The notes beneath the pieces are model-generated. The model made no database searches. It was not told the origin of the DNA and was given only the letters and a program-made list of their open reading frames with translations. From Aminobacter carboxidus (GTDB lineage: Bacteria > Pseudomonadota > Alphaproteobacteria > Rhizobiales > Rhizobiaceae), in assembly GCF_014863355.1 (NCBI RefSeq), contig NZ_JACZEP010000001.1, positions 124,001 through 188,000 of the forward strand: a DNA stretch of 64,000 nucleotides, read 5' to 3'. This document shows, one piece after another, positions 50,223-64,000 of the stretch (positions are counted from its first letter, which is position 1; every line of letters starts with the position of its first letter). A program made the translations under genes and the position numbers.

Positions 50223-51131
50223 TTAGAGGTAGATCGGGTTCGACCAGGCCAACTTGCCGTCCTCGTCGATAACCACCACCCGGCACCAGTCGCCCGCAAA
50301 TTTTTCCCATGGCAGGCGGGCCGAGGTCATGCCTGTTCCGGACGCTTTTTCGTTCCTGGATGCACGTCCGACCAGCGAAATCTGAAAGCAAGGCGAGGTG
50401 TCGATCGTAATGAAATCGTCATCGACGGCGACATTGTTGATCTCCGGCCCCTGGCTGGAATAGTACCGGCCAAGCTTCAGCGCTTCGACCAAAGCGTCGG
50501 GTTCATTCTGTTCGGCCTTGACCATGACCCAACCGCCGAATGCGTCGCGGTTCTGGTCTTCTCCGGCTACCCAATGAGCGTCGTCGCAGGCGAGGGCATT
50601 GATGCGCCTGCCGGTGTTCAGGATGTCGTCGAGATAGTAGGATCCGCCGCCACGGCCGTTAAGAATCTGGCTGGTGTGATTGTAGACCTCCACAGCATGG
50701 GCGCCAGGGATTGACGCCGCGTCACCAGCCGTCAGCGCATACCATTCGGGATGCGGAATGGCGACGAACGCGCCGGCATCCAGACAGCGTTGTGCCAGCT
50801 CCGGGCCTGTCTCATTTGCCGTGTTGGGCGGAAAATCGGCTGGCAGACCGACCGCCAGAATATGCCACTTTTCTCCTTGCTCGGTTGCCGGGGCATGGCA
50901 CTCCGCACCCAGGATGGTGGTAAAATTGTTGGTGCGGAACGGGCGCGTGTCGGCGATGGGGTAATCGTAATGCGGCATGAAATGATCTGAGAGACAGATG
51001 AAGTCGTAGCCGCGCTCGCGATAACGCGTGCAGACTTCTTTCGGGTCCAGCTTTCCATCGGAGAGCGTCGAATGGGTGTGCAGGTTGCCCCGGTAGAAGT
51101 TTCCGGGAGCTGCGAAGGCCTCAACTGACAT
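50223..51131 (-). CDS. PHP-domain metallohydrolase (CehA/McbA family)
   Basis: 302 residues. The PHP motif is NLHTHSTLSDGKLDP near the N-terminus, followed by CLSDHFMPHY, IPHPEWY and ALACDDAHW, giving the His/Asp metal ligands of CehA/McbA-like hydrolases. The family includes carbaryl (carbamate ester) hydrolase and uncharacterised phosphoesterases. It overlaps the ABC ATPase gene by 11 bp and ends the leftward importer operon, so it probably hydrolyses the imported compound in the cytoplasm; no signal peptide is seen. Confidence 0.85.
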   Translation of the reverse strand: MSVEAFAAPGNFYRGNLHTHSTLSDGKLDPKEVCTRYRERGYDFICLSDHFMPHYDYPIADTRPFRTNNFTTILGAECHAPATEQGEKWHILAVGLPADFPPNTANETGPELAQRCLDAGAFVAIPHPEWYALTAGDAASIPGAHAVEVYNHTSQILNGRGGGSYYLDDILNTGRRINALACDDAHWVAGEDQNRDAFGGWVMVKAEQNEPDALVEALKLGRYYSSQGPEINNVAVDDDFITIDTSPCFQISLVGRASRNEKASGTGMTSARLPWEKFAGDWCRVVVIDEDGKLAWSNPIYL

Positions 51132-52788
51132 GCTTTACGGTCCTTTGCGCCGCTTGTGCGGACGCGGTTGAAAATGCATCGAGAAGTTTTCGCGTGTAGG
51201 GCGATTTCGGGTTGGTGAGGATGGTGCCGGTGTCGGCGTAGTCGCGCACCTGGCCCTTTTCCAGAACCAGGATCTGATCCGACATTTCAGCGACCACTGG
51301 CAGGTCGTGCGAGATGAACAGGTAGGCTGTGTTGTGCTCCTGCTGCAGCCGCTTCATCTGCTTCAGCACCTGCGCCTGCACCGTGACATCAAGGGCTGAG
51401 GTGATTTCGTCGCACAAGACAAGGTCGGGCTTGCAGGCGAAGGCGCGAGCGATCGCCACGCGCTGCTGTTGCCCGCCTGAGAGTTGGCGCGGCGAGCGTG
51501 CAAGCAGGCTTGCGTCGAGGTCGAGTTCCTGAAGCAGTTCAACGACCCGGTCGCGGCTGGCCGCGCGGGACATGCCGAAGAATATCTGCAACGGCCGCGC
51601 AATGATCTGCTCGACCGTGTGCTGCGGATTGAGCGAGGAGGCGGGATCCTGGAAAATCATTTGGACGCGCCTGCGCAGGTCGCGATCGCGGCTGGTCGCC
51701 AAGCCCGTGAGTTGCTTGCCTTCGAAGAGGATTTTGCCGCCATTGCCGTCGACCAACCCGGCGACAAGGCCAGCGAGCGTCGACTTGCCGCTGCCGGATT
51801 CGCCGACCACGCCGAGCGTCGAGCCAGGGGTGATCGACAAAGAGATGTCGTCAAGCGTCCGGCTCGGTGCCGGGCCTGGGAAAAGCCGGCGCAGCAATTT
51901 TGAGCCGCCACCTCCATAGGTGAAGTCGAGATCACGAACCGACAGCACCGGTGCGTCGACGGCGACCTTCAGCGGCGCCGACTTGGCGTCCGATCTCAGT
52001 TTTGGAATGGCTGCGATCAGCGAGCGGGCATACTCGGTTTTCGGCTGCGTAAAGACCTCGAGCGTGGGACCATCTTCAAGTACCTTGCCCTTCTGCATCA
52101 CCAGCACGCGCTCGCACATGCGCGCCACGACGTTCAGGTCGTGGCTGACATAGATCAATGTTGTGCCGGTGCGCTTCTGCAGGCGGCTGACCAGGTCGAG
52201 CACCTGCGTTTCCACTGTCTTGTCGAGCGCGGTGGTCGGCTCATCCAGGATGATCAGTTCGGGCTCGGCAACGAGTGCTGCCGCGATCACCACGCGCTGG
52301 CGCTGGCCGCCCGACAGCTGGTGGGGATAGCGCTTGAAGATCGCGGCCGGGTCGGGAAGCTCCATTGCCGCCAGCAGTTCCAGCGCCTTGTCGCGGGGCG
52401 TCAACGAACCTGCGGCATTGTGCTGGCGGATCAGTTCGACCATGTGCTGGCCGATCGTGCGGTGCGGCGTCAGCGACGATAGCGGGTTCTGCGGCACCAT
52501 CGCCGCCTTTCGGCCGCGGAACTGCAGCAGCTGAGCAGCATCGAGCGACAGGATGTCGGTGCCTGACACCAACACGCTTCCTCCGGCGATGCGAGCGCCT
52601 GGACGCGTGTAGGCGAGGAACGCGCGCGCCAGCGAAGACTTGCCGCAGCCGCTTTCACCGACGATGCCGAGCGTCTCGCCCTTGCCGATGGAAAAGCTGA
52701 TGTCGTCGACGGCAGCCAGTTCGGTGCCCGGTCCGGTCTTGTAGACCAGCCTGAGGTTGCGAACGTCGATGTGCGGTATCTGGGTCAT
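51121..52788 (-). CDS. Peptide/nickel-type ABC transporter ATPase, fused DppD-DppF
   Basis: 555 residues with two complete cassettes. First: Walker [10 protein letters not shown] (about 43-51), signature [15 protein letters not shown], Walker [13 protein letters not shown]. Second: [24 protein letters not shown], and [12 protein letters not shown]. Both sites look active, and fusion of the two ATPases is common in rhizobial transporters. It follows the second permease gene with 1 bp between stop and start. Confidence 0.94.
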
Positions 52789-52789
52789 G

Positions 52790-53674
52790 TCAGCCGAGCT
52801 CCGCCGTTGCGATGCCGAAAGCGCGCGACAAGCCGTCGACCATGAAGTTGACGCCGATGATCAGGCTGGACAGCATGATCGCCGGCAGCAGCAGGAACCA
52901 CGGATCGGTGAAGACGACGCCCATGGCCTCCTGCACCATCAGGCCCCAGTCCGGCGTCGGCTGGCTGATGCCAAGTCCAAGAAACGACAGGCCGCTGATG
53001 CGCAGCACGGCAGACGAGATGCGCACGGCCAGCTCGACACCCAAAAGGCCGATCAGGTTTGGGAAAATCTCGCGCAGCATTACAGCCAACCGGGTTTCGC
53101 CGCGTAACTCCGCGGCGCGTACGAAATCCAGCGTCGACAGGCTTATCGTCTTGGCGCGCACGACACGTACGACGCCCCAGGTGTAGACAACGGCGACGAC
53201 GGGGATCAGCGCACTGACGTCCTTGCCTAGCGCCAGCGTCAGGATGGCGATCAAGATGAGGTCGGGGATGGACATCATCGAATCGACGATGCGCATGACG
53301 ATCTCGTCGGTACGGCCGCCGATGTAGCCGGCGACGACGCCCAGAATGGTGCCGACAAAGAGCGAGATCGCGACGCCGAGAAAAGACACCATCAGCGCGA
53401 TGCGGCCACCGGCCACCACGCGGCTGAAATAGTCGCGTCCGATCTGGTCGGTGCCCATCAGGAATTCCCAGGACGGGCGCTGCAGCGGTGCGCCGACAAG
53501 TGCGCTGGTGTCGTAGGGCGCGATGATCGGCGCCAGCAGAGCCATCAGGAGATGCGCGACGACCAGGATGATCCCGATCAGCGTCGCGGGTTCCGAAAGC
53601 GCGCGGCGCAGGCGCGGCGAGCCGAACAGGTCGCTAAGACGACGCCTCCTCGTGTCGATCAATATGTTAGCCAT
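52790..53674 (-). CDS. Peptide-type ABC transporter permease, DppC-like
   Basis: 294 residues. The frame is open to 53884, but the family start MANILIDTRRRRLSDLFGSP is at 53674, overlapping the first permease by 8 bp. It has six transmembrane helices and the EAA-like loop (AAELRGETRLAVMLREIFPN). It pairs with the DppB-like protein. Confidence 0.92.
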   Translation of the reverse strand: MANILIDTRRRRLSDLFGSPRLRRALSEPATLIGIILVVAHLLMALLAPIIAPYDTSALVGAPLQRPSWEFLMGTDQIGRDYFSRVVAGGRIALMVSFLGVAISLFVGTILGVVAGYIGGRTDEIVMRIVDSMMSIPDLILIAILTLALGKDVSALIPVVAVVYTWGVVRVVRAKTISLSTLDFVRAAELRGETRLAVMLREIFPNLIGLLGVELAVRISSAVLRISGLSFLGLGISQPTPDWGLMVQEAMGVVFTDPWFLLLPAIMLSSLIIGVNFMVDGLSRAFGIATAELG

Positions 53675-54647
53675 TGGATGACCTCGTGCGTACGCGCGGG
53701 TCCAGCGCCAGGATCGCCAGGTCGGCAATGAGGTTGGCGAAGACGACGGCAAGGGCGGCCAGGAAGGCGATGGCCTGGATGGTTGGGATTTCGCGTTGTG
53801 AAAGCGCGCGCAGCAGTTCGCCGCCGGCACCGGGAAACTTGAAGACCGCTTCCACCACCACCGACGTCGCCAGCAGACCGGCAACGAAATAGGCGGTAGC
53901 GTTGAGCATTGGGATCAGGGCGGAGGGCAGCGCATGGATGACGCTGATTCGCCACTGCGGAATTCCGGCCAGCCTGGCACGCTCGACATAATCACTGTTC
54001 AGCGCCTCGACCATACCGGCGCGCAGGAGCCGGAACTGATAGGCTGCGCCATGTACGCACAAGGCGATGACCGGAACGATCGCCGCAGCCAGGATCGTCA
54101 GCTTAGGTGCGTTGGTGGGCGCGAAGATCACGGCTGGCACCAGGCCCAGCCAGACCGCGAAGACAATGACGAAGACGTTGCTGACGACGAAATCGGGCAT
54201 CGAATAAGTGAACAGCGTCGTCGTGCTGATCGCGTTGTCGAGGCGACCGCCGGGCTTCAGGCTGGCCAGCACGCCGAGCGCGATGACCAGCGCCAGCATG
54301 ACGACGAGTGCGAGGCCGGCCATGATCGCCGAATTGACGATGGGGTGGAAGATGCGCGTCGCCACGGACTCCTTCTTCATGATCGTGGTGCCGAAATCGA
54401 ATGTCATGAGCTGGTGCCAGACTTCGAGAAACCGAACCGGGATGGACCGGTCCATGCCCAATTCGCTGCGCATCTGGGCCAGTTGCTCAGGCGAGTAGAA
54501 CTGCAATTCTTCCGCCGGGATGGAGGCGGTAAGTGCGTCGCCTGGGAGAACTTCGGTGCCGAGAAACACGATCAGTGCGGTGAAGCTCAGGATGAAGAAG
54601 GCCATGAACAGCCGTCTTCCGATCATTCTCGCGATGCTTGCCAACAT
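53667..54647 (-). CDS. Peptide-type ABC transporter permease, DppB-like
   Basis: 326 residues, starting MLASIARMIGRRLFMAFFIL after a strong GGAGG ribosome-binding site. It shows the DppB pattern: an early periplasmic FLGTEVLPGDALTAS, then helices and the EAA loop (SDYVERARLAGIPQWRISVI). It is separated from the solute-binding protein gene by 75 bp that contain a strong hairpin. Confidence 0.93.
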   Translation of the reverse strand: MLASIARMIGRRLFMAFFILSFTALIVFLGTEVLPGDALTASIPAEELQFYSPEQLAQMRSELGMDRSIPVRFLEVWHQLMTFDFGTTIMKKESVATRIFHPIVNSAIMAGLALVVMLALVIALGVLASLKPGGRLDNAISTTTLFTYSMPDFVVSNVFVIVFAVWLGLVPAVIFAPTNAPKLTILAAAIVPVIALCVHGAAYQFRLLRAGMVEALNSDYVERARLAGIPQWRISVIHALPSALIPMLNATAYFVAGLLATSVVVEAVFKFPGAGGELLRALSQREIPTIQAIAFLAALAVVFANLIADLAILALDPRVRTRSSNG

Positions 54648-54677
54648 TGCTCCGCCTCCCGCGCAAGTGATGTCAAT

Positions 54678-54705
54678 TCAGGAGCTGGGGTGACCCAGCT
54701 CCTGA
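54678..54705 (-). promoter_or_regulatory. Strong intercistronic hairpin between binding protein and permease genes
   Basis: Perfect 12 bp arms at 54678-54689 (TCAGGAGCTGGG) and 54694-54705 (CCCAGCTCCTGA) with a 4 bp loop, and no T-tract behind it. Such hairpins commonly stabilise the abundant binding-protein mRNA and reduce read-through into permease genes. Confidence 0.7.
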
Positions 54706-54722
54706 GCCTGGTTGCGAATCTC

Positions 54723-56315
54723 TCAGCTCTCGATCCATACGTCGTCGAAGCGGCTGGACCAGTTTTGGGAATGCGACTTCAGGTTCTGAACCCCTGGCGC
54801 GTGCGCCAGCATGTTGCGGCGTCCGCCAAGTACGATAGCCGGCGTGTCCGACTGCAGGATCTTCTGAAGCTCCTGGTACATGCCGATCCGCTTTTCCTCG
54901 TTCGGCTCGGCGATGGTTTCAGCGTAGAGCTTGGCGTAGGCGTCGGCCTTCTCGCCCGTCCACGCACCTTTCTCGACGTCGTTTGCCACCATGCGCCCGA
55001 GGTTGATCGCGGGATTGCGCGGCCCGACCACACCAGCCGAAGGGCGTCCATAAGGCGGGTTCACGCCCTTCACATAGGCATCAAACCCGTCGGTCGGCAT
55101 TTCGCGGATATCCATGTTGATGCCGGCCTTCTTCAGCGATTCCACCACGATCGCCATGATGCGAGGCATTTCCGGGAAGGATGGCGAGAAGACGATCGGC
55201 GGCAGGTCGATGCCGTTAGGATGACCGGCTTCCGCCAAGAGCTTCTTTGCCGTCGCAATGTCGAAGGCCTTGTCGCGCGGTACAAATTCACGGTTCAGAC
55301 CCGACATCTGGGTGTCGTTGCCGACCCAGCTTCCGGGATCGTTGTAAACGATCGTATTGATGGCTTCGCGGTCGATGCTCAGGCTCATGGCAAGGCGCAC
55401 GCGCGGGTCATTCCAGGCGATGTCTAGGTTCTTCGGCATCGAGATCAGGAATTGATCGCCGCCCTTGGACTTGTGCACGATACCGCCCGCACCTTCGAAT
55501 TGCGCGGCCGTCGTCGGGTCGATGTTGAAGACTGCGTTGAACTGGCCGGAGCGGAAGCCGTTGATCGCTGTCTGCGAATTGACGACATATCCCTCCAACT
55601 CGTCGATGAAAGGGCGGCCTTTCATCCAGTAGTTTTCATTACGTACTGCCTGGAAGCCGCGGCGGTTGTCGACCGAGACAAGCTTGAAGGGGCCGGTGCC
55701 GATGCCATCCGTGAGGATCAGGTCGGGTGCCGCTGCCGGAGCGATCGCCAGGCGATACTCGGCAAGCGCGTATGGCCATTCGGCATAGGGCGCGTTCAGG
55801 ATGAAACGAACGCCATACTTGCCTTGGGCCTCGACCTTTTCGAACCACTTGGTGATGAAGCTGCTGCCCTTCTGGGCGATATGGGCGTTGAACGAGGCGA
55901 CGACGTCTTCGCTAGTCATCTCCTTGCCGTTGTGGAACATCACGCCTTCGCGCAGCTTGAAGTCCCAGACTTTCAGCGTGCCATCGGATGGCGCCCAGCT
56001 CTCGGCCAGTTCACCCTGGACATTGTAGTCGTGGTCGATCCACACCAGGCTGTTCCAGATCGAGCGGGTCAGCAGGTCGATCCAGTAGTAGGGGTGCTTG
56101 CCGTTGTCGGAACTGCCCACCGCCCAATTCGGATAGGTCTGGCCATAGATCAGCTTGCCGCCCGTCTTCGGATTGGAACCGGCAGGCAGGGCGGCCCAGG
56201 CCGGCAGCCCGTCCACGGTCTGTGCTGCCGCCGAACCGGTGATGAATGGCTGAACGCCAAACGCCGAAACACCGAGTCCGAGAAGCTGCAGAAATTCTCT
56301 CTTCGTAATGGCCAT
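54723..56315 (-). CDS. Peptide-type (SBP family 5) solute-binding protein
   Basis: 530-residue periplasmic receptor. The frame is open to 56486, but MAITKREFLQLLGLGVSAFG at 56315 gives a Tat-like signal (no RR pair but a KRE-F-L pattern) ending near AAAQ, and AGGTGTAGGA precedes it. The body shows family 5 features: EGVMFHNGKEMTSEDVVASF, GTGPFKLVS and a C-terminal NWSSRFDDVWIES. The ligand is unknown; the nearby phosphonate genes make an organophosphonate conjugate a possibility. A near-identical C-terminal scrap lies at 6493-6582. Confidence 0.9.
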   Translation of the reverse strand: MAITKREFLQLLGLGVSAFGVQPFITGSAAAQTVDGLPAWAALPAGSNPKTGGKLIYGQTYPNWAVGSSDNGKHPYYWIDLLTRSIWNSLVWIDHDYNVQGELAESWAPSDGTLKVWDFKLREGVMFHNGKEMTSEDVVASFNAHIAQKGSSFITKWFEKVEAQGKYGVRFILNAPYAEWPYALAEYRLAIAPAAAPDLILTDGIGTGPFKLVSVDNRRGFQAVRNENYWMKGRPFIDELEGYVVNSQTAINGFRSGQFNAVFNIDPTTAAQFEGAGGIVHKSKGGDQFLISMPKNLDIAWNDPRVRLAMSLSIDREAINTIVYNDPGSWVGNDTQMSGLNREFVPRDKAFDIATAKKLLAEAGHPNGIDLPPIVFSPSFPEMPRIMAIVVESLKKAGINMDIREMPTDGFDAYVKGVNPPYGRPSAGVVGPRNPAINLGRMVANDVEKGAWTGEKADAYAKLYAETIAEPNEEKRIGMYQELQKILQSDTPAIVLGGRRNMLAHAPGVQNLKSHSQNWSSRFDDVWIES

Positions 56316-56482
56316 TGTTCCTACACCTTCGCGTTCTTGCGGGGCGAAATGCCCGGCAAGTGACAACCTTTTTTGGGATTTCGCTACCAGCCCTTCCGAG
56401 CGGACAGCGCCAATTAGGGGACGATTACAACACGAGAGTGACAGTCGGCCTTGCAGGAGTCTAATCTGATATATCAATGAAG

Positions 56483-56501
56483 CCATTGATCAGATCAATG
56501 G
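56483..56501. promoter_or_regulatory. Palindromic operator candidate upstream of the ABC importer operon
   Basis: CCATTGATCAGATCAATGG: perfect 8 bp arms around CAG, with a further partial copy (ATCAATGA) just before it. Placement upstream of the binding-protein gene suggests a regulator site; which regulator is unknown. Confidence 0.5.
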
Positions 56502-56646: not shown

Positions 56647-58101
56647 TTACCAGGGCAAAGAGAATGTCTTGACGTTGGTGAAGCTTTTCATGGCTTCGAT
56701 GACGCCTTCCTTGTAGCCGTTGCCGGAGTCCTTGATCCCGCCAAAAGGCGACATCTCGATGCGGTATCCCGGGACTTCCCAGATATTCACCGTGCCGACC
56801 TGCAGGCCGGCGATGTATTTCTGCATGCGCCGGAAGTCGTTGGTGCACACACCTGACGACAGGCCGAAGGCGGTCGAGTTGGACAGCGCGATCAGCTCGT
56901 CGTCATTGTCGGGCGCGCGCACGATCGGGATGATCGGACCGAAGGTCTCTTCCATCACCAGCTCAGAGGTATGCGGCACGCGGTCGACGACGATCGGCGG
57001 CAACAGCGCGCCCTTTCGGCCTGGGTCGTAGAGCACTTCGGCACCTTGTTCGGCGGCCATGTAGACGCGCTTTTCAAAGAGTGCGGCAGCCTTCTCGTGC
57101 ACCACGGTGCCGAGATCGGTACTGCGGTCCATCGGGTCGCCGAACCTGATCTTCCTGGCCCGCTCCAGCACCATCGGCACGAAACGGTCGGCAACACTTT
57201 CCTGGCACAGGATGCGCTTGACCGCGGTGCAGCGCTGGCCCGAGTTCTTGGTGGCGCCAGCGACCGCCAGATCGGCTGCCTTGGCGAGATCGTCGTCGGA
57301 GAGGTCGTTGAGGATGATCAGAGGATCGTTGCCGCCGAGCTCCAGCACCTGACGCTTGTAGCCGGCGGTGCGGGCAATCAGCTTGCCCACCGGCACACCG
57401 CCGGTGAAGGTGATCAGCTCGATATTCTCGTTGGTGATCATCTCGGCGCCGATGTCGGCGGGCATGCCCGTCACGACAGACAGCATTTCCGGCGGCAGGC
57501 CGGCCTCATAGAGGATGTCGGCGAGGATCAGCGCCGTCATCGGCGTCAATTCAGTCGGCTTGACCACGACGCAGTTGTTGGTGGCGATTGCGGGTGCCAC
57601 CTTGTGCGAGACCATGTTGAGCGGATGGTTGAACGGTGTGATTGCCGAGATCGCTTTCAACGGCTCACGCGTGGTGAAGATTTTCCGCGCCTTGCCATGC
57701 GGCGTGAGATCGCAGGAGAAGATCTGGCCGTCGTCCTGGATGCACATCTGCGCCGACAGCGTGAATACGTCGTAGGCGCGGCCAACCTCGTACAAGGAGT
57801 CGGCCTTGGAGATGCCGAGCTCCAACGTGATGATGTCGGAGATCTCTTCCTTGCGCGCGGCAAGGGCTTCGGCCGTGCGGAACAGGATCTGCTGACGCTC
57901 GTAGCGCGTCAGCTTCGGCTTGTAGTTGGCCGCGATCTCGAAGGCCTGGCGGGCGTGCTCGGCCCGCCCCGCCGGCACCGTGCCGATCACCGCATCGGTG
58001 TAGGGGTAGTGGACGTTGACGACGCCATCGGCATCGACCTTGCGTCCGGCGATGCGCATCGGCTCATGACGCACCTTGAACGTTGTTTCAGCCTTGACCA
58101 T
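56647..58101 (-). CDS. phnY: Phosphonoacetaldehyde dehydrogenase
   Basis: 484-residue aldehyde dehydrogenase. Catalytic Cys291 ([12 protein letters not shown]) is at the position I recall for Sinorhizobium PhnY, and the general base Glu254 sits in LELGGNDP. It oxidises phosphonoacetaldehyde to phosphonoacetate with NAD+. The frame is open to 58155; GGGAGG upstream and the family start give ATG 58101 ([10 protein letters not shown]). It follows phnA by 13 bp, so the two enzymes act in sequence from one transcript. Confidence 0.92.
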
Positions 58102-58114
58102 CACAGGTCCTCCC

Positions 58115-59371
58115 TCAGGCCAGTGCCGCCGCCATGGCGGCATAATAGAACGCATCGAAGTTGCGCAGAACCGGCTCGTTGGGCAGCGACGGCAGCTTGC
58201 GGTTGACGATGAACGGTACCGCCTGCTCGGTCAGGCCGCCATGCGAGCGCAGTGGCTCGTTGAGCGCTGCCAGATCATGGCGATGCTCGCTGGTGCCGAT
58301 GGTCTTGTTTTCAGTGGACACCAAAACGATGTCGCCGATGCGGTCAAAGGGCAATTCGAAGCGCTCGCAGGCGGTGGCGTTGTCGATGACCACGTCGATG
58401 CCTTCGATGGACGCAAGGCGCTTCATGATGCCGGCCTGGTCAGCACCTTCGGGCAGGTAGGCGGTGGCAAACGAGCCGAGCGCGCCGTGATGGACGACAT
58501 AAGGATCGGTGATCGGCAGGATGACGCGCGCTGCGTCCTTGCCGAGCCACTCGTCGAGCAGGTCCTGGACATAGACCACGTCAGGGGTGCCGTCGGCCTT
58601 GTGCTTGGGCTTCATGCCATGGTCGGCGGTGATGACGATGGCAGCACCGAGCGCGTCGAGTTCGCCGAGATACTTGTCGAACATCTCGTAGAAGGCGTTG
58701 GCCTGCGGCACGCCGGGCGCATATTTGTGCTGCACGTAGTCGGTCGTGGTCAGGTACATCACGTCAGGCTTGAATTCCTTCAGCAGCTTGACGCCGGCGG
58801 CAAATACGAACTCCGACAGTTCGGCCGAATAGACCTCCGGCACCGGCTTGCCGAGCCAGGCCGAGGCATTGTCGATGCCGTGCTCGGCCTTGGTCGAGAC
58901 GTCCGACTTTTCCGACGAAAAGCAGATGGCGCGGCCTTCGTCGAACTTCAGGCCGCTGCCGAGCAGGGCGCGCAGCTTGTCCTTGGCGGTGACCACGGCA
59001 ACGCGTGCGCCGGCATCGTAGAAGGCCTGGAAGACGGTCGGCGCGCGCAGGAAGCGCGGGTCGTTCATCATCACTTCCTTGCCGGTCTCGCGCTCATAGA
59101 GATAGTTGCCGCAGATGCCATGCACCGCCGGCGGCCGGCCGGTGGCGATCGACAGATTGTTGGGGTTGGTGAAGCTCGGGATGACGCTGTGGGCGGTGCG
59201 CTCGGTGCCCTTGGCGCGGATCTTTACCAGGTTCGGCATCAGGTCCGCCTTGATCGCCTCGTCGAGATAGGCCGGCTCGCAGCCGTCGAGGCAGATGGCA
59301 ATTGCCGGCACGCGCGGCCATTCATAGTTGCGGCCGTTGGCGCTGACGTTGATCGTGGTCATCTTGTTCAT
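58115..59371 (-). CDS. phnA: Phosphonoacetate hydrolase
   Basis: 418-residue alkaline-phosphatase-superfamily enzyme that cleaves phosphonoacetate to acetate and phosphate. Counting from MNKM at 59371, the zinc and catalytic residues fall at Asp29, Thr68, Asp211, His215, Asp250, His251 and His377, which matches the numbering I recall for the Sinorhizobium meliloti enzyme. This agreement also supports the chosen start over the frame start at 59455. The protein looks fully active. A CCATA..TATGG dyad lies about 130 bp upstream. Confidence 0.95.
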
Positions 59372-59493
59372 GGGGAGAGGTCCTTGGGCTTGGAGCAATC
59401 CGATTGCCGGTGGTATGCGCCGCCTCGGATATCGGTCGTCTCTTCTGTGCCGCAACTCAATCTATTTGCCAAATCGCAATTATGAATTCGATC

Positions 59494-59515
59494 GATAGGC
59501 CATATCTATGGCTAG
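59494..59515 (-). promoter_or_regulatory. LysR-type operator candidate upstream of phnA
   Basis: Core GCCATA-TC-TATGGC (59499-59512), a perfect 6 bp inverted repeat, preceded by GATAG. Related dyads occur at 61248-61270 and 62144-62154. Confidence 0.6.
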
Positions 59516-61176
59516 ATTGCCTTGGCCAAGCGGCTTTCCAACAGATCGCCGCTTGCGGTCAGAATGGGGTAGGCGACCGTAACCAGCAGTGAATTGATCT
59601 CTTTCAGGCCGCGGGCGATTTCGAGATGCATCCCGCTCGTTTCAATGCTTTCCGGCGTTCCGGACTGCAGCCGCTTCAAATGCTGGCCATGCGTATGGCG
59701 GTGCAGGTCGCGCATTCTTTGCTTTTCGACGACCAACTGCCGTGCGGACAGCTGGTCCTGCGAAATGAGAACGTTGAGGGCAAGGTGCATGTTTTCGATC
59801 AAGCGCTCGTGCAGGTCGGCCAGTTCCTTCCAGCCCTCGTCGGAGAAGCGCCAGTTCTTGTCGGCGCGCTCTTCGGCGAGGACCAGCAGGTTCTTGGCTA
59901 TCACGTCGCCGGCATGCTCGAGATTGATAGCCAGATCGGTCAACTCGATGCTGCGGCGCGCTTCCTCAACCGTCATCTGGCCGCGGTTCACCTCGGCAAG
60001 ATAGAGCTTGATGTCGGTGTGGGCCTGGTTGAGCGCTTCATCCAAGGCGCGGACGCGAGCGATCTCGCTGCGGCTGCCGGCGCGCAGGAGGTCCATGACA
60101 GGCCGCACCATGGTTTCCAGCAATTCGCCCATGCGCAGCAGTTCGCGCGTGGCGCTGGCGAGCGCGAGGCGCGGTGTCGCGATGACGGAACGATCGAGCG
60201 CGCTGACGCGATGGCTCAAGGGGGCGCCGGTGGCTTCAGCCTGCGTATCGGGCACTAGGTGACGGGTGACTATCGCCATGGCTGATATGAAAGGCAGGCT
60301 CGCTGCGACCAGACCGACGTTGAACAAGAGATGGAAATTGACCAGCGCCGTGCCTGGCCCGGACCCCAGCATGTCGATCGAAAATCCGCTTGTTTCGAGC
60401 GCAACAAGAGCAAGAAGGGCACCCATCGCGCGGAAGATCAGATTGCCGACCGGGATCCGCTGCGCCACGGCAGGCATGCCACGTGAAAGCCAGAAGGCAA
60501 TGAGGCCGCCACCGAGATTGCAGCCGAGCACGAGCGGCACACCGGCCTCCAGCGGCACGAGGCCCTGAGCGGCAAAAGCCGTAACCATCAGGACAGCGGC
60601 GACGCTCGAATGCACCACCCAGGTGAAAAAGGCCCCGACGAGAAAAGCGGTGATGTAGTCGTCAGCCAGGTAAGCCGACATCGATGGCAGCATGGCGCCG
60701 CTGCGCAACGGACCCGTTGCCGTGCCAATCAGCTGCAGCGACAAAAGGACGAAGCCGACGCCAAGGATCATCCGTCCGGTTTCGCGAAGCCTCTCGCTCG
60801 ACAGCTTCAGGTGCATCACGCCGCCAGCAAACAGGCAGACCGGTACCAGCCAACCGAGATCGAACGACAGGATGCGCACGACAACCGCCGAGCCGAGGTC
60901 CGCACCAAGCAGCAACGCAAGCCCGGTCGGTAGCGCGAGAACCCCGCTCGCCGCGAAACCACAGGCAAGCATCGCGACGGCGGTTGAGCTTTGCAGCATC
61001 ACGGCCATCGCCGTGCCGCCTGCCGCGGCTTTGATCTGGCCGCGCCTGGCTTCTCCCAGCATGGTTCGCAGCGTGTCGCCGTGGGCGCGCTCCATACCGG
61101 TGCGCACCATATGCACGGCAAAAAGCAGGAGCATGGTTGCGCCGGCCAGATGAAGCAGGATTAGGGAAAAGTGCAT
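59512..61176 (-). CDS. Na/Pi cotransporter family protein with PhoU-like domain (YjbB type)
   Basis: 554 residues. The N-terminal half has two inverted Na/Pi repeats with MLQSSTAVAMLACGFAASG and later FFTWVVHSSVAAVLMVTAFA, the QSS/HSS signatures of this family. The C-terminal part (about 340-550) is a helical PhoU-like domain. Relatives import phosphate with Na+, but E. coli YjbB exports it. Being the gene directly upstream of the phosphonoacetate hydrolase gene on the same strand, release of excess phosphate is a sensible role. A strong dyad lies 72-94 bp before the start. Confidence 0.88.
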   Translation of the reverse strand: MHFSLILLHLAGATMLLLFAVHMVRTGMERAHGDTLRTMLGEARRGQIKAAAGGTAMAVMLQSSTAVAMLACGFAASGVLALPTGLALLLGADLGSAVVVRILSFDLGWLVPVCLFAGGVMHLKLSSERLRETGRMILGVGFVLLSLQLIGTATGPLRSGAMLPSMSAYLADDYITAFLVGAFFTWVVHSSVAAVLMVTAFAAQGLVPLEAGVPLVLGCNLGGGLIAFWLSRGMPAVAQRIPVGNLIFRAMGALLALVALETSGFSIDMLGSGPGTALVNFHLLFNVGLVAASLPFISAMAIVTRHLVPDTQAEATGAPLSHRVSALDRSVIATPRLALASATRELLRMGELLETMVRPVMDLLRAGSRSEIARVRALDEALNQAHTDIKLYLAEVNRGQMTVEEARRSIELTDLAINLEHAGDVIAKNLLVLAEERADKNWRFSDEGWKELADLHERLIENMHLALNVLISQDQLSARQLVVEKQRMRDLHRHTHGQHLKRLQSGTPESIETSGMHLEIARGLKEINSLLVTVAYPILTASGDLLESRLAKAI

Positions 61177-61247: not shown

Positions 61248-61270
61248 ATCCATAGTGCACGTCTATGGAT
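61248..61270 (-). promoter_or_regulatory. LysR-type operator candidate upstream of the Na/Pi gene
   Basis: ATCCATAG (61248-61255) and CTATGGAT (61263-61270) are perfect 8 bp arms separated by 7 bp. This is the longest of the three related dyads and sits in the spacer between the Na/Pi start and the lysR stop. Confidence 0.65.
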
Positions 61271-61273
61271 GGA

Positions 61274-62146
61274 TCACCCCTGGGGATGCAGGACAGACGT
61301 CATGAAAGCCTCGATCTTGGGCGAGTGCTGGCGTTCCTGCAGGCATGCAAGCCGATACTCCGTCTGGATCGTTGCGTCCGCGATGCGGATCGTCTCGAGG
61401 CGAGGGTGCGCAACAAATTCGAAGTCCGCGACGACACCGATGCCCAGACCACGCTCCACGGCTTTCCAGACGCCCTCGCGGCTGCCGATCTCGAGCAACG
61501 GCTTTATCGGGACTCCGGCCTTTTCGGCGGCCTGTTCAAAGGCACGGCGGGTGGTCGATCCCGTTTCGCGCAGGATGAGCGGCTGGTCTGCCAGTTCGGC
61601 CATCGTGATGCTCTCGCGGCCATGCCAGGCATGATCCGAATTTACGAACACGACCACTTCATGTGTGCTGAAGGGAACCGAGTAGATACGCGGATCATCG
61701 ACGACATGCGCGAGGATTGCGACGTCGGATTCGAGCTCGAGAATCCTTTGCAGTGTCTGGTCCGAGTTGCCCAAGAGCATGCTGACCTTGATCGACGGGT
61801 ACTTCGTCAGGAAGCGCGCCACCATCTCCGTGGCATGGAACGGTCCAACCGCCGCTACGCGCAACTGGCCTGTCGTCAGCCGCCCGCTGCTGAGCAGCAA
61901 TTCCTCGGCCTCGTCCTGCAAGCTCATGATGCGCCGGCTGATGTCGAAGAGTGCGGCACCTGTCTCCGTCAGTTCGACGCGGCGCCCGCGGCGCACCAGC
62001 AATTCGACGCCATAGCGATCCTCCAACTCCTTCACCTGCGTTGTGACGGTTGGCTGGCTGATGTGAAGGGCGTTGGCTGCGGCCGTGAAACCTCGGTTTT
62101 CAGCGACAGCATGAAACGAACGGAGGTGGGTAAATACTATAGCCAT
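61274..62146 (-). CDS. LysR-type regulator of phosphonate catabolism
   Basis: 290 residues. The N-terminal helix-turn-helix (FHAVAENRGFTAAANALHIS and QPTVTTQVKELE) and periplasmic-binding-like effector domain match LysR regulators found with 2-aminoethylphosphonate genes. It is divergent from the iron-type alcohol dehydrogenase gene, with 93 bp between starts. One CATAG..CTATG dyad overlaps its own start codon, and relatives sit before the Na/Pi and phnA genes, which suggests autoregulation and substrate-dependent activation. Confidence 0.9.
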   Translation of the reverse strand: MAIVFTHLRSFHAVAENRGFTAAANALHISQPTVTTQVKELEDRYGVELLVRRGRRVELTETGAALFDISRRIMSLQDEAEELLLSSGRLTTGQLRVAAVGPFHATEMVARFLTKYPSIKVSMLLGNSDQTLQRILELESDVAILAHVVDDPRIYSVPFSTHEVVVFVNSDHAWHGRESITMAELADQPLILRETGSTTRRAFEQAAEKAGVPIKPLLEIGSREGVWKAVERGLGIGVVADFEFVAHPRLETIRIADATIQTEYRLACLQERQHSPKIEAFMTSVLHPQG

Positions 62147-62157
62147 AGTCTATGATT
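62136..62157. promoter_or_regulatory. LysR-type operator candidate over the lysR start / divergent promoter
   Basis: CATAG-T-CTATG (62144-62154) with CTATAG just before it. It overlaps the leftward lysR start codon and lies about 90 bp before the rightward dehydrogenase gene. Confidence 0.6.
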
Positions 62158-62239
62158 AGCGACAAGGATTTGTATTAGTCAATGGATCGGCCCTCCGCCA
62201 CACTTCTCCTGCCATCAGTTCAAGACAGGAATTACAACC

Positions 62240-63367
62240 GTGTGGTCATACAGCAATCCAGTCGACATCCGTTTTGGCCGGGGCAGTTTTTCCAGGCTTT
62301 CCGACGCGATCGGCGGCCGCAGATACGCTCTGGTCACCTACGGAGATCCATATTTCCGGGGCCTCGTAGCCGAGCTCGAAGCCAAGGCGGGCAGCCCATC
62401 CCTGATCATCGACGATATCGCGCCCAATCCCGACATTGCTCTTCTCGAGATGCAGACCACGCGCTTTGCCAAGCTGGCTGTGCAACCTGAAGTCGTCGTC
62501 GCGCTCGGCGGAGGGTCAGTCATCGACTCGGCCAAAGTTTTTGCCGCGGCACTCGGAGATTTCGCGACGGTAGACGCCTATCTCAAGAAGCGGGCCGGTG
62601 CCGAGACGATCAAGCCCTGGCCGCTGATTGCGGTTCCGACAACCGCTGGCACCGGAAGCGAAGTCACGTGCTGGGGAACCGTTTGGGACAATGTCGGCGG
62701 GGTGAAGTTCTCGCTGGCCCACCCGGGCCTCTATCCCCAGTTCTCGATCGTCGATCCCGATCTGATGATTGGCAAGCCGCGCGAACTGACGATCCAGACC
62801 GGACTTGACGCGCTATCGCATGCACTGGAAAGCCTGTGGAACCGGAACTCCAATCCCGTTTCCATGGCACATGCGGTCATGGCGGCCCGCGGCGTGCTCT
62901 CGACCTTGCCGCTTCTTGCCAACGACCTTCGCAATGCCGATCTCCGTGAGCGGATGGCTCGCGCAGCGACGCTTGCCGGATTTGCCTTCTCAAACACCAA
63001 GACGGCGATCGCGCATTCGCTGTCTTATCCGATCACCTTGCGCCACGGCGTCCCGCACGGCATCGCCTGCTCCTTCTCCTTGCCAATGATCATCCGCAGC
63101 GTTGCGGGAGAGGGTGGCATCTGTGCGGAAGGACTGAACGCGATATTTGGTAGGGATGCCGACGGCGCGGCCGACCAACTCATGGCGTTCCTGGCCAAGC
63201 TCGGGGTCGCCACCAACCATCACCACTACGGTATCGAAGATGGCGAATGGCGCGAGTTGATCGACCTCGCCTTCGATGGCGAGCGTGGACAGAACTTCAT
63301 CGGCGGCAAGGACAACCTGCTGAAGGCAGCCGGTCTAGGCAAGGAGAAACGCCAAGCAGTCGCATGA
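62240..63367 (+). CDS. Iron-type alcohol dehydrogenase, probable phosphonoacetaldehyde reductase (PsrA-like)
   Basis: 375-residue group III (iron-containing) alcohol dehydrogenase: NAD loop VVALGGGSVIDSAKVFAAAL, metal-site block PTTAGTGSEVT, and metal ligands in DALSHALES and HGVPHGIACS. Relatives linked to phosphonate operons reduce phosphonoacetaldehyde or act on hydroxyethylphosphonate. The start is GTG at 62240, after AGGA. It is divergent from lysR and 56 bp upstream of phnD. The direction of the reaction in the cell is unknown. Confidence 0.85.
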   Translation: MWSYSNPVDIRFGRGSFSRLSDAIGGRRYALVTYGDPYFRGLVAELEAKAGSPSLIIDDIAPNPDIALLEMQTTRFAKLAVQPEVVVALGGGSVIDSAKVFAAALGDFATVDAYLKKRAGAETIKPWPLIAVPTTAGTGSEVTCWGTVWDNVGGVKFSLAHPGLYPQFSIVDPDLMIGKPRELTIQTGLDALSHALESLWNRNSNPVSMAHAVMAARGVLSTLPLLANDLRNADLRERMARAATLAGFAFSNTKTAIAHSLSYPITLRHGVPHGIACSFSLPMIIRSVAGEGGICAEGLNAIFGRDADGAADQLMAFLAKLGVATNHHHYGIEDGEWRELIDLAFDGERGQNFIGGKDNLLKAAGLGKEKRQAVA

Positions 63368-63423
63368 TTGAAGCGCTGCAGCGGGAGGACGCTGCGGTAT
63401 CACCGTTTTTTTGGGAGGAAAAC

Positions 63424-64000
63424 ATGAGTGCTCTGAAATATACGTTCGCCGGCCTGATGACTGCCGGGGCAGTCGTCGCCTATGCGAGTTCGGGACTGGC
63501 GCAGGAGTGCAAGAACCCGGACCAGCTGGTCTTTTCGATCATCCCGACCGAGGAGACCACCCAGGAACTCGACATCTACAAGCCATTGCTGGACAAGCTG
63601 AAGGAAAAGACCGGCAAGCCTGTCGAGTTCTTTATGCCGACGTCTTACGCCTCGGTGATCGAGGGCATGGTCAATGGCTGGGTCCAGATCGGTGTCCACG
63701 GACCCAACTCCTACGTGCTGGCCAAGGAAAAGGATCCGGCCCTCGAGGTGTTCGCGACCTACACCAAGCTCAAGGGCCATTTCCAGGAGGAAGGTCCGGG
63801 CTATCGCGCGGTGCTGGTTTCCAGGGCGGATTCCAAGTTCGACAGCATCGAGAGCCTGAAGGGCAGCGTCGTTGGGCTTGCCGATCCGGCTAGTACCTCC
63901 GGCAATCTCTTCCCGCGGATCGTGTTCGGTGACTTGGTTGGGGTAGGTCCCGAACTCGAGAAGTATTTTTCGAAGGTCGTTTATACAGGTGGCCACGATC
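63424..64000 (+). CDS. phnD: Phosphonate ABC transporter substrate-binding protein (partial, runs off right edge)
   Basis: 192 N-terminal residues of a PhnD-type periplasmic protein: signal peptide MSALKYTFAGLMTAGAVVAY ending GLAQ, then LVFSIIPTEETTQELDIYKP and GVHGPNSYVLAKEKDP, typical for binding of phosphonates such as 2-aminoethylphosphonate. A strong GGGAGG ribosome-binding site precedes the ATG. The ATPase and permease genes presumably follow outside the window. It supplies the phosphonate for the catabolic genes to its left. Confidence 0.9.
   Translation, partial: MSALKYTFAGLMTAGAVVAYASSGLAQECKNPDQLVFSIIPTEETTQELDIYKPLLDKLKEKTGKPVEFFMPTSYASVIEGMVNGWVQIGVHGPNSYVLAKEKDPALEVFATYTKLKGHFQEEGPGYRAVLVSRADSKFDSIESLKGSVVGLADPASTSGNLFPRIVFGDLVGVGPELEKYFSKVVYTGGHD

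Follow-up and report, generated by a model that had tools for sequence, protein, structure and literature searches.

The closest described relatives of the transporter studied here are the YjbB proteins of Escherichia coli and Salmonella, which have the same two-part architecture, i.e. a Na/Pi-type membrane domain followed by a PhoU-like tail, share 35% identity with it over nearly the full length and also have a second motif without Gln. In RefSeq, YjbB is named putative inorganic phosphate export protein. Over-expressed Salmonella YjbB is described to activate PhoB in Pi-rich medium (PMC10055408) and, according to the YjbB passages of the respective papers, YjbB can export Pi upon over-expression (PMC11850910) and does not suffice for Pi import (PMC13170248). 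The yjbB gene is located between metH and pepE, i.e. in no catabolic operon, whereas the gene in the window, by which we mean the whole 64 kb stretch of DNA analysed here, is associated with phosphonate enzymes and with a putative LysR operator.

A PF02690-type membrane domain like that of the window protein is also present in SLC34 and in NptA, found in Staphylococcus, Enterococcus and, in short forms, Proteobacteria. NptA from Staphylococcus has a PhoU tail, just like the window protein, and imports Pi, and in S. aureus its PhoU domain affects PhoPR signalling (both from the NptA passages of PMC13170248). NptA-type proteins contain the QSS motif twice, whereas the window protein contains QSS and then HSS; in human NaPi-IIa, the counterpart of the second motif is part of the Na3 site as modelled, according to a section of PMC6325988.

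The co-occurrence of such a transporter with phnWAY genes is already in print, where it is read as a phosphonate symporter. A figure of the phnWAY operon of Shinella DD12 names the gene 'sodium/phosphonate symporter (yjbB)' (PMC4748535), and the relevant passage of a review assigns AEP uptake by S. meliloti to a putative sodium-dependent symporter encoded in the operon (PMC10574752), which probably corresponds to the Na/Pi gene located on pSymB between lysR and phnW. In our plasmid search this gene of the phnWAY operon was 53-54% identical to the window transporter. The pSymB gene order (lysR, Na/Pi gene, phnW, phnA, phnY, 2AEP ABC transporter) is that of a second cluster in the window genome, whereas the window cluster has genes for an iron-containing alcohol dehydrogenase (Fe-ADH) and a phnD-type ABC transporter where S. 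meliloti has phnW and AepX.

Pi is released by bacteria that draw their nitrogen from 2AEP (PMC8316502; review PMC10574752), and it has been argued that the marine P cycle receives Pi from such 2AEP mineralisation (PMC8316502). The passages of PMC8316502 that deal with export name no exporter; they do describe AepP, a relative of GlpT-like antiporters that is required for Pi-insensitive growth of P. putida BIRD-1 on 2AEP. Among the matches listed, our literature search found no paper joining a phosphate exporter with phn operons. Sulfonate operons follow the same logic, i.e. an anion freed by catabolism is exported, by the sulfite/sulfate exporters TauE and YeiH; these are unrelated to the window protein and handle sulfur, not phosphorus. 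On S. meliloti pSymB, the phn cluster has an xsc cluster with a YeiH-family gene a few kb away.

Results

The window gene encodes a YjbB-type protein with a PhoU-like tail

The transporter gene (59512-61176, minus strand) starts with ATG and codes for 554 aa. Its product contains two PF02690 Na_Pi_cotrans stretches (E 9.9e-38) and PF01895 PhoU in the C-terminal part (E 3.2e-13), scores above the cut-off of the NCBIfam model NF037997 (Na/Pi symporter) and is 35.4% identical to E. coli YjbB over 539 aa, which agrees with the original prediction of a YjbB-like Na/Pi protein with a PhoU-type domain. E. coli YjbB exceeds the cut-offs of both TIGR01013 (569 bits) and TIGR00704 (455.9 bits), whereas the window protein stays below them (159.5 bits, cut-off 306.15, and 175.2 bits, cut-off 210.1, respectively).

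In an AlphaFold2 model (48 rows, mean pLDDT 90, pTM 0.61) the C-terminal half superimposes on PhoU in a fold search (4q25; Z 24.4, rmsd 2.0, 207 residues). The modelled membrane half loosely resembles SLC13, VcINDY and ArsB-type carriers, with Z-scores of 7.8-9.6 and rmsd values of 5.6-6.5 for NaCT, ArsB, NaS1 and VcINDY. As this class comprises importers, but also exporters such as ArsB, the fold does not indicate the direction of transport; the loose matches do not settle membership either. The fold-search list for the model did not contain SLC34; zebrafish SLC34 chains gave a weak sequence match (E 0.0023). In the alignment, invariant columns extend through the membrane half.

In a quick tree of 111 proteins, labelled by hand and with 33 housekeeping rows left out to thin the sample, the window protein falls into a 15-row clade and its paralogue from the second cluster into a 9-row clade, all members of both being phosphonate-linked. 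YjbB and the window protein share a branch of 108 rows (SH-aLRT 100), outside of which are two Firmicute proteins and L226. The phosphonate label, carried by 48 rows and inflated because phnA had served to select part of the sample, requires 17 changes on the tree, at least 15 of them forced by supported branches, as compared to a shuffled mean of 36.2. Thus, the phosphonate link is clustered, yet has been gained or lost many times.

The window protein has QSS in the first repeat and HSS in the second, whereas all 13 NptA-type sequences have QSS in both. Gln is missing from the second motif in 152 of the 162 YjbB-type sequences, the residue at this position being H, Y, S, A or W instead, and no phosphonate-linked row contains it. 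The ten exceptions with Gln (L260, L261, L263, L265-L267, L274, L275, L278, L279) have the housekeeping paralogue as best match. With 10/162 YjbB-type sequences carrying Gln, we rejected the change in the second motif as a clean exporter sign and used it only to separate YjbB-type proteins from NptA.

The transporter gene is part of a phosphonate cluster

As originally stated, the transporter gene lies directly upstream of phnA on the same strand, the gap being 122 bp if phnA starts with the ATG at 59389. The order on the minus strand is lysR, transporter, phnA, phnY, with the Fe-ADH and the phnD-type ABC genes divergent from lysR. PhnA (phosphonoacetate hydrolase; 58115-59389, minus strand) and PhnY (phosphonoacetaldehyde dehydrogenase; 56647-58155, minus strand) score above the cut-offs of TIGR02335 and TIGR03250, respectively. 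The LysR-type regulator (61274-62146, minus strand; PF03466 and PF00126) reaches 306.7 bits with TIGR03339 phn_lysR, which is under the cut-off of 341.1. On the plus strand, the Fe-ADH gene (62240-63367; NCBIfam PsrA, TIGR03405, 428.9 bits, cut-off 423.7) is followed by the gene for a phnD-like binding protein (63424-64000, continuing past the window end; start codon read by eye from the translation), which scores above the cut-off of TIGR01098 and below that of TIGR03431 PhnD. Further downstream on the contig are phnC, phnE and phnE, as named by eye from their translations.

The set of lysR, Fe-ADH (PsrA) and phnD-type ABC genes (61274-64000 in the window, 13424-16836 in L004, the 20 kb around the window cluster) resembles a 2-hydroxyethylphosphonate route into phnY-phnA, and comparable lysR/Fe-ADH/phnD-type sets without phnW are present in L099, L122 and L229. 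On the other side of the cluster, after phnY and on the same strand, genes for an Opp/Nik-type ABC transporter with an SBP_bac_5 binding protein are located (51121-56486).

An operator-like motif recurs within the cluster

The motif ATAG-N7-CTAT occurs before phnA (59495-59509), before the transporter gene (61252-61266) and in the lysR/Fe-ADH divergence, where it overlaps the lysR start (62139-62153). The original prediction had proposed a common operator type for the transporter and phnA, and the motif indeed precedes both. The window contains three copies, all confined to the phosphonate cluster, with 0.14 expected; three copies were reached in 0 of 100 shuffles. In the whole genome there are 18 sites versus 11 for a reversed-pattern control, i.e. 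the motif is not rare genome-wide, and the weight thus rests on clustering, position and conservation in L229. This Devosia MAG has the gene order of the window, its transporter shares 74-75% identity with that of the window, and all three motif positions recur in it, together with an additional fourth copy at 1347, which we take as chance. In L141 the places at the lysR/dehydrogenase divergence and before phnA are conserved, and there is no copy before the transporter. The motif was not found in L122, L099 and L115, though their lysR is of the same kind, nor in the second phosphonate cluster of the genome (L006). Four other genomic sites, at three places, were inspected by eye and revealed no additional regulon member, one pair flanking another lysR and the others lying among genes without plain link.

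No Pho-box-like site with up to three mismatches was found near the transporter gene; the window contains two such hits (1940 and 26330), with 4.59 expected. This test is weak, as even the C-P lyase locus, with a best site of two mismatches, gives a total near chance.

The transporter is linked with phnA, not with C-P lyase

The family set comprises 199 genomes, with phnA above cut-off in 42, PhnJ in 139, PhnX above cut-off in 14 and a relative of the transporter in 133. Linkage was defined as a listed transporter relative within 12 kb, based on the best 150 transporter matches, weaker ones lying outside the comparison, and a PhnJ fragment of 90 bases was excluded. Among the matches listed, linkage by this definition applies to 24 of the 45 phnA sites (two in the window genome), 1 of the 14 phnX sites and none of the 142 phnJ (C-P lyase) sites, PhnJ marking a pathway that is usually under Pho control. 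Thus, the co-occurrence with phnA in other genomes, which had been proposed as a check, was borne out. The Fisher value for the phnA linkage, 3e-18, ignores shared ancestry, four of the genomes belonging to the window's own genus; moreover, the phnA sites in L120 and L121 may be one, as they have equal scores and lie at opposite ends of one contig. In a class-wide sample, the transporter was found near 7 of 50 phnA loci, plus an edge fragment in L079. The gene is therefore not needed everywhere, 21/45 phnA sites of the family and 43/50 loci of the class having none nearby.

Three close relatives away from phnA have other phosphonate genes as neighbours: phnW and phnX in L167, AepX and an AepX ATPase gene, in line with the relative, in L165, and a phosphonate-type lysR, AepX and a TauD/HD pair in L169, which may represent an oxidative phosphonate pathway. 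No phosphonate gene was nearby in L166. Of 80 named loci, 32 contain, by our reading, the housekeeping paralogue, and 14 of the 48 others contain phnW or phnA; as the plasmid and named-genome sets were chosen by query likeness, these link rates are not frequencies.

Phosphonate importers and Pit often coexist with the transporter in the family

Phosphonate importers were sought with AepX and PhnD of the window genome (>200 bits), i.e. with rhizobial queries that miss distant importers. In the family, AepX or PhnD was recognised in 18 of the 24 phnA loci with the transporter and in 12 of the 21 without (odds ratio 2.25, Fisher p 0.23), giving no sign that the transporter replaces an importer. 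In the class sample the corresponding numbers are 2/7 and 11/43. With AepX or PhnD not recognised in five of the seven loci, this sample leaves room for an import role and does not favour export.

Pit (PF01384), present in 147 of the 199 family genomes, had no match in the window genome or in the three others of its genus (4/4 genomes), and a search for PstS with TIGR02136 gave 136 bits, which is below the cut-off. A role of the phnA-linked transporter as stand-in for a missing Pit was ruled out, as Pit is present in 17 of the 23 genomes with a phnA-linked copy. The window genome contains a third paralogue (42% identical) near genes that read, by eye, as dnaG and rpoD, with no phosphonate genes seen nearby; it might serve Pi uptake in this genus without Pit match.

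The second phosphonate cluster has its own transporter

The second phosphonate cluster, on contig C23 (L006), consists of lysR, a transporter paralogue that is 59% identical to the window transporter, phnW, phnA, phnY, a DMT-type membrane gene and the gene for an AepX-type binding protein, so that each of the two phnA clusters has its own transporter copy. The LysR of this cluster passes TIGR03339 (366.9 bits). The two phnA-phnY pairs are 98.5% identical over 2736 bp of DNA with sharp ends (window 56650-59385, L006 4027-6762), from which we conclude that the pair was recently copied or gene-converted between the clusters. The DNA of the two transporters is 67.8% identical and the flanking genes differ, i.e. 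in both clusters a recent enzyme pair lies beside an older, diverged transporter. The DMT-type gene between phnY and AepX (L006 3022-3861), which is below the cut-off of the phosphonate-associated model TIGR03340 and is also present in many relatives, possibly encodes another exporter.

The original prediction had framed the window cluster in terms of 2-aminoethylphosphonate, and this part was not confirmed. No PhnW match was present in L004, i.e. in or around the window cluster, which contains Fe-ADH and a phnD-type ABC transporter instead, so the substrate is probably not 2-aminoethylphosphonate; reasoning based on this compound suits the second cluster better. For the window cluster, we infer from the gene content that the substrate may be 2-hydroxyethylphosphonate or a relative.

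Relatives lie beside other phosphate-releasing genes

In two Shimia loci (L291 8807-11632, L303 8833-11641), a ugp-like ABC transporter (identity read by eye from translations), GDPD and then a YjbB-type gene are arranged on one strand. Relatives also lie beside GDPD in Devosia neptuniae and beside annotated ugp and metallophosphoesterase genes in Sulfitobacter, and a metallophosphoesterase gene adjoins the relative in L168. A YjbB-type gene also heads an operon on a Ti plasmid (L219 8947-10599), where it is followed by traR and the gene for sucrose phosphorylase. Divergent from this operon are ABC, GDPD-like and inositol-monophosphatase-like genes, a set that corresponds to acc as described in the literature. 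According to the relevant part of PMC5924552, AccR releases acc as well as arc, the divergent operon that contains traR. An agrocinopine-type pathway would be a second setting where a Pi valve makes sense. As many relatives have no phosphate-releasing neighbour, these organophosphate neighbours are a lead.

Discussion

The window transporter is likely to be a YjbB-type phosphate exporter that would serve as overflow valve for phosphonate catabolism. When a phosphonate is used as carbon (or nitrogen) source, LysR may sense the substrate or an intermediate and, via the ATAG-N7-CTAT operators, would co-induce the phosphonate importer together with the alcohol dehydrogenase, the transporter, and phnA-phnY. 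Fe-ADH would oxidise 2-hydroxyethylphosphonate, or a relative, to phosphonoacetaldehyde, which PhnY and PhnA would convert to acetate and Pi. As one Pi per substrate would thus be freed in the cytoplasm, exceeding the needs of growth, the membrane domain may release the surplus from the cell, and the PhoU-like tail probably gates transport or senses Pi. Export is of advantage to a pathway that is induced by its substrate and frees Pi. The direction of transport, the transported substrate, the gating, the binding of LysR and the inducer are inferred. The export reading of the original prediction is strengthened by the link with phnA, the shared operator-like motif, the absence of linkage with phnJ (0/142), the presence of an importer in 18/24 family loci and the reported Pi export by over-expressed YjbB, whereas the class sample, with recognised importers in 2/7 loci, does not favour it.

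The published label suggests that the protein may instead be a phosphonate importer, i.e. a sodium/phosphonate symporter, or a phosphonate:Pi exchanger, as GlpT-like AepP may be. The consulted parts of PMC4748535 and PMC10574752 read this gene, or probably the same gene, in the former way, and the requirement for AepP in Pi-insensitive growth of P. putida BIRD-1 on 2AEP, as described in part of PMC8316502, would fit the latter. The gene arrangement in L165, where AepX and the AepX ATPase gene are in line with the relative, as well as the five of seven class loci in which AepX and PhnD remained unseen, point in the same direction. However, family loci with the gene have an ABC importer in 18/24 cases, as compared to 12/21 without (p 0.23), relatives lie beside GDPD, ugp and agrocinopine genes, whose substrates are not phosphonates, and the family consists of phosphate carriers, so that we regard phosphonate transport as unlikely.

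The family names would be in line with an ordinary Na+-driven phosphate importer that is a mere passenger in the cluster, as would the import of Pi by NptA from Staphylococcus, a protein with a PhoU domain (NptA passages of PMC13170248), and the lack of a Pit match in the window genome. Import would, however, be illogical beside a pathway that frees Pi under the same operator, and Pit is also found in 17/23 genomes with a phnA-linked copy. Moreover, the second motif is HSS in the window protein, while both motifs read QSS in the proteins from S. aureus and Enterococcus, a branch with a support of 100 places the window protein with YjbB, and a Pho box was not found near the gene; we thus consider this function improbable. 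The clear PhoU fold of the modelled tail and the effect of the S. aureus NptA PhoU domain on PhoPR signalling (same passages of PMC13170248) might also indicate a role mainly in signalling, in which the tail would report high cytoplasmic Pi and restrain the Pho system or other transporters with little net transport. As the membrane half is as conserved as the rest, with invariant columns running through it, and as we saw no pointer to a partner kinase, such a role appears very improbable.

Phosphate export thus being our preferred reading, the transporter is a candidate, complete with regulon logic, for the exporter behind the Pi release by phosphonate-mineralising bacteria, and export provides an alternative function for a gene that papers label as phosphonate symporter. 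YjbB-type proteins would also gain a physiological role beyond the effects of over-expression. Whether they are, in general, substrate-induced phosphate overflow valves that have been recruited repeatedly into operons for the use of organophosphorus compounds as carbon or nitrogen source is, in our view, evenly balanced. If so, these operons would span phosphonates (PhnA, PhnX and oxidative TauD/HD), glycerophosphodiesters (ABC uptake and GDPD) and the agrocinopines of Ti plasmids, and the valve would free catabolism from phosphate feedback and return Pi to the surroundings.
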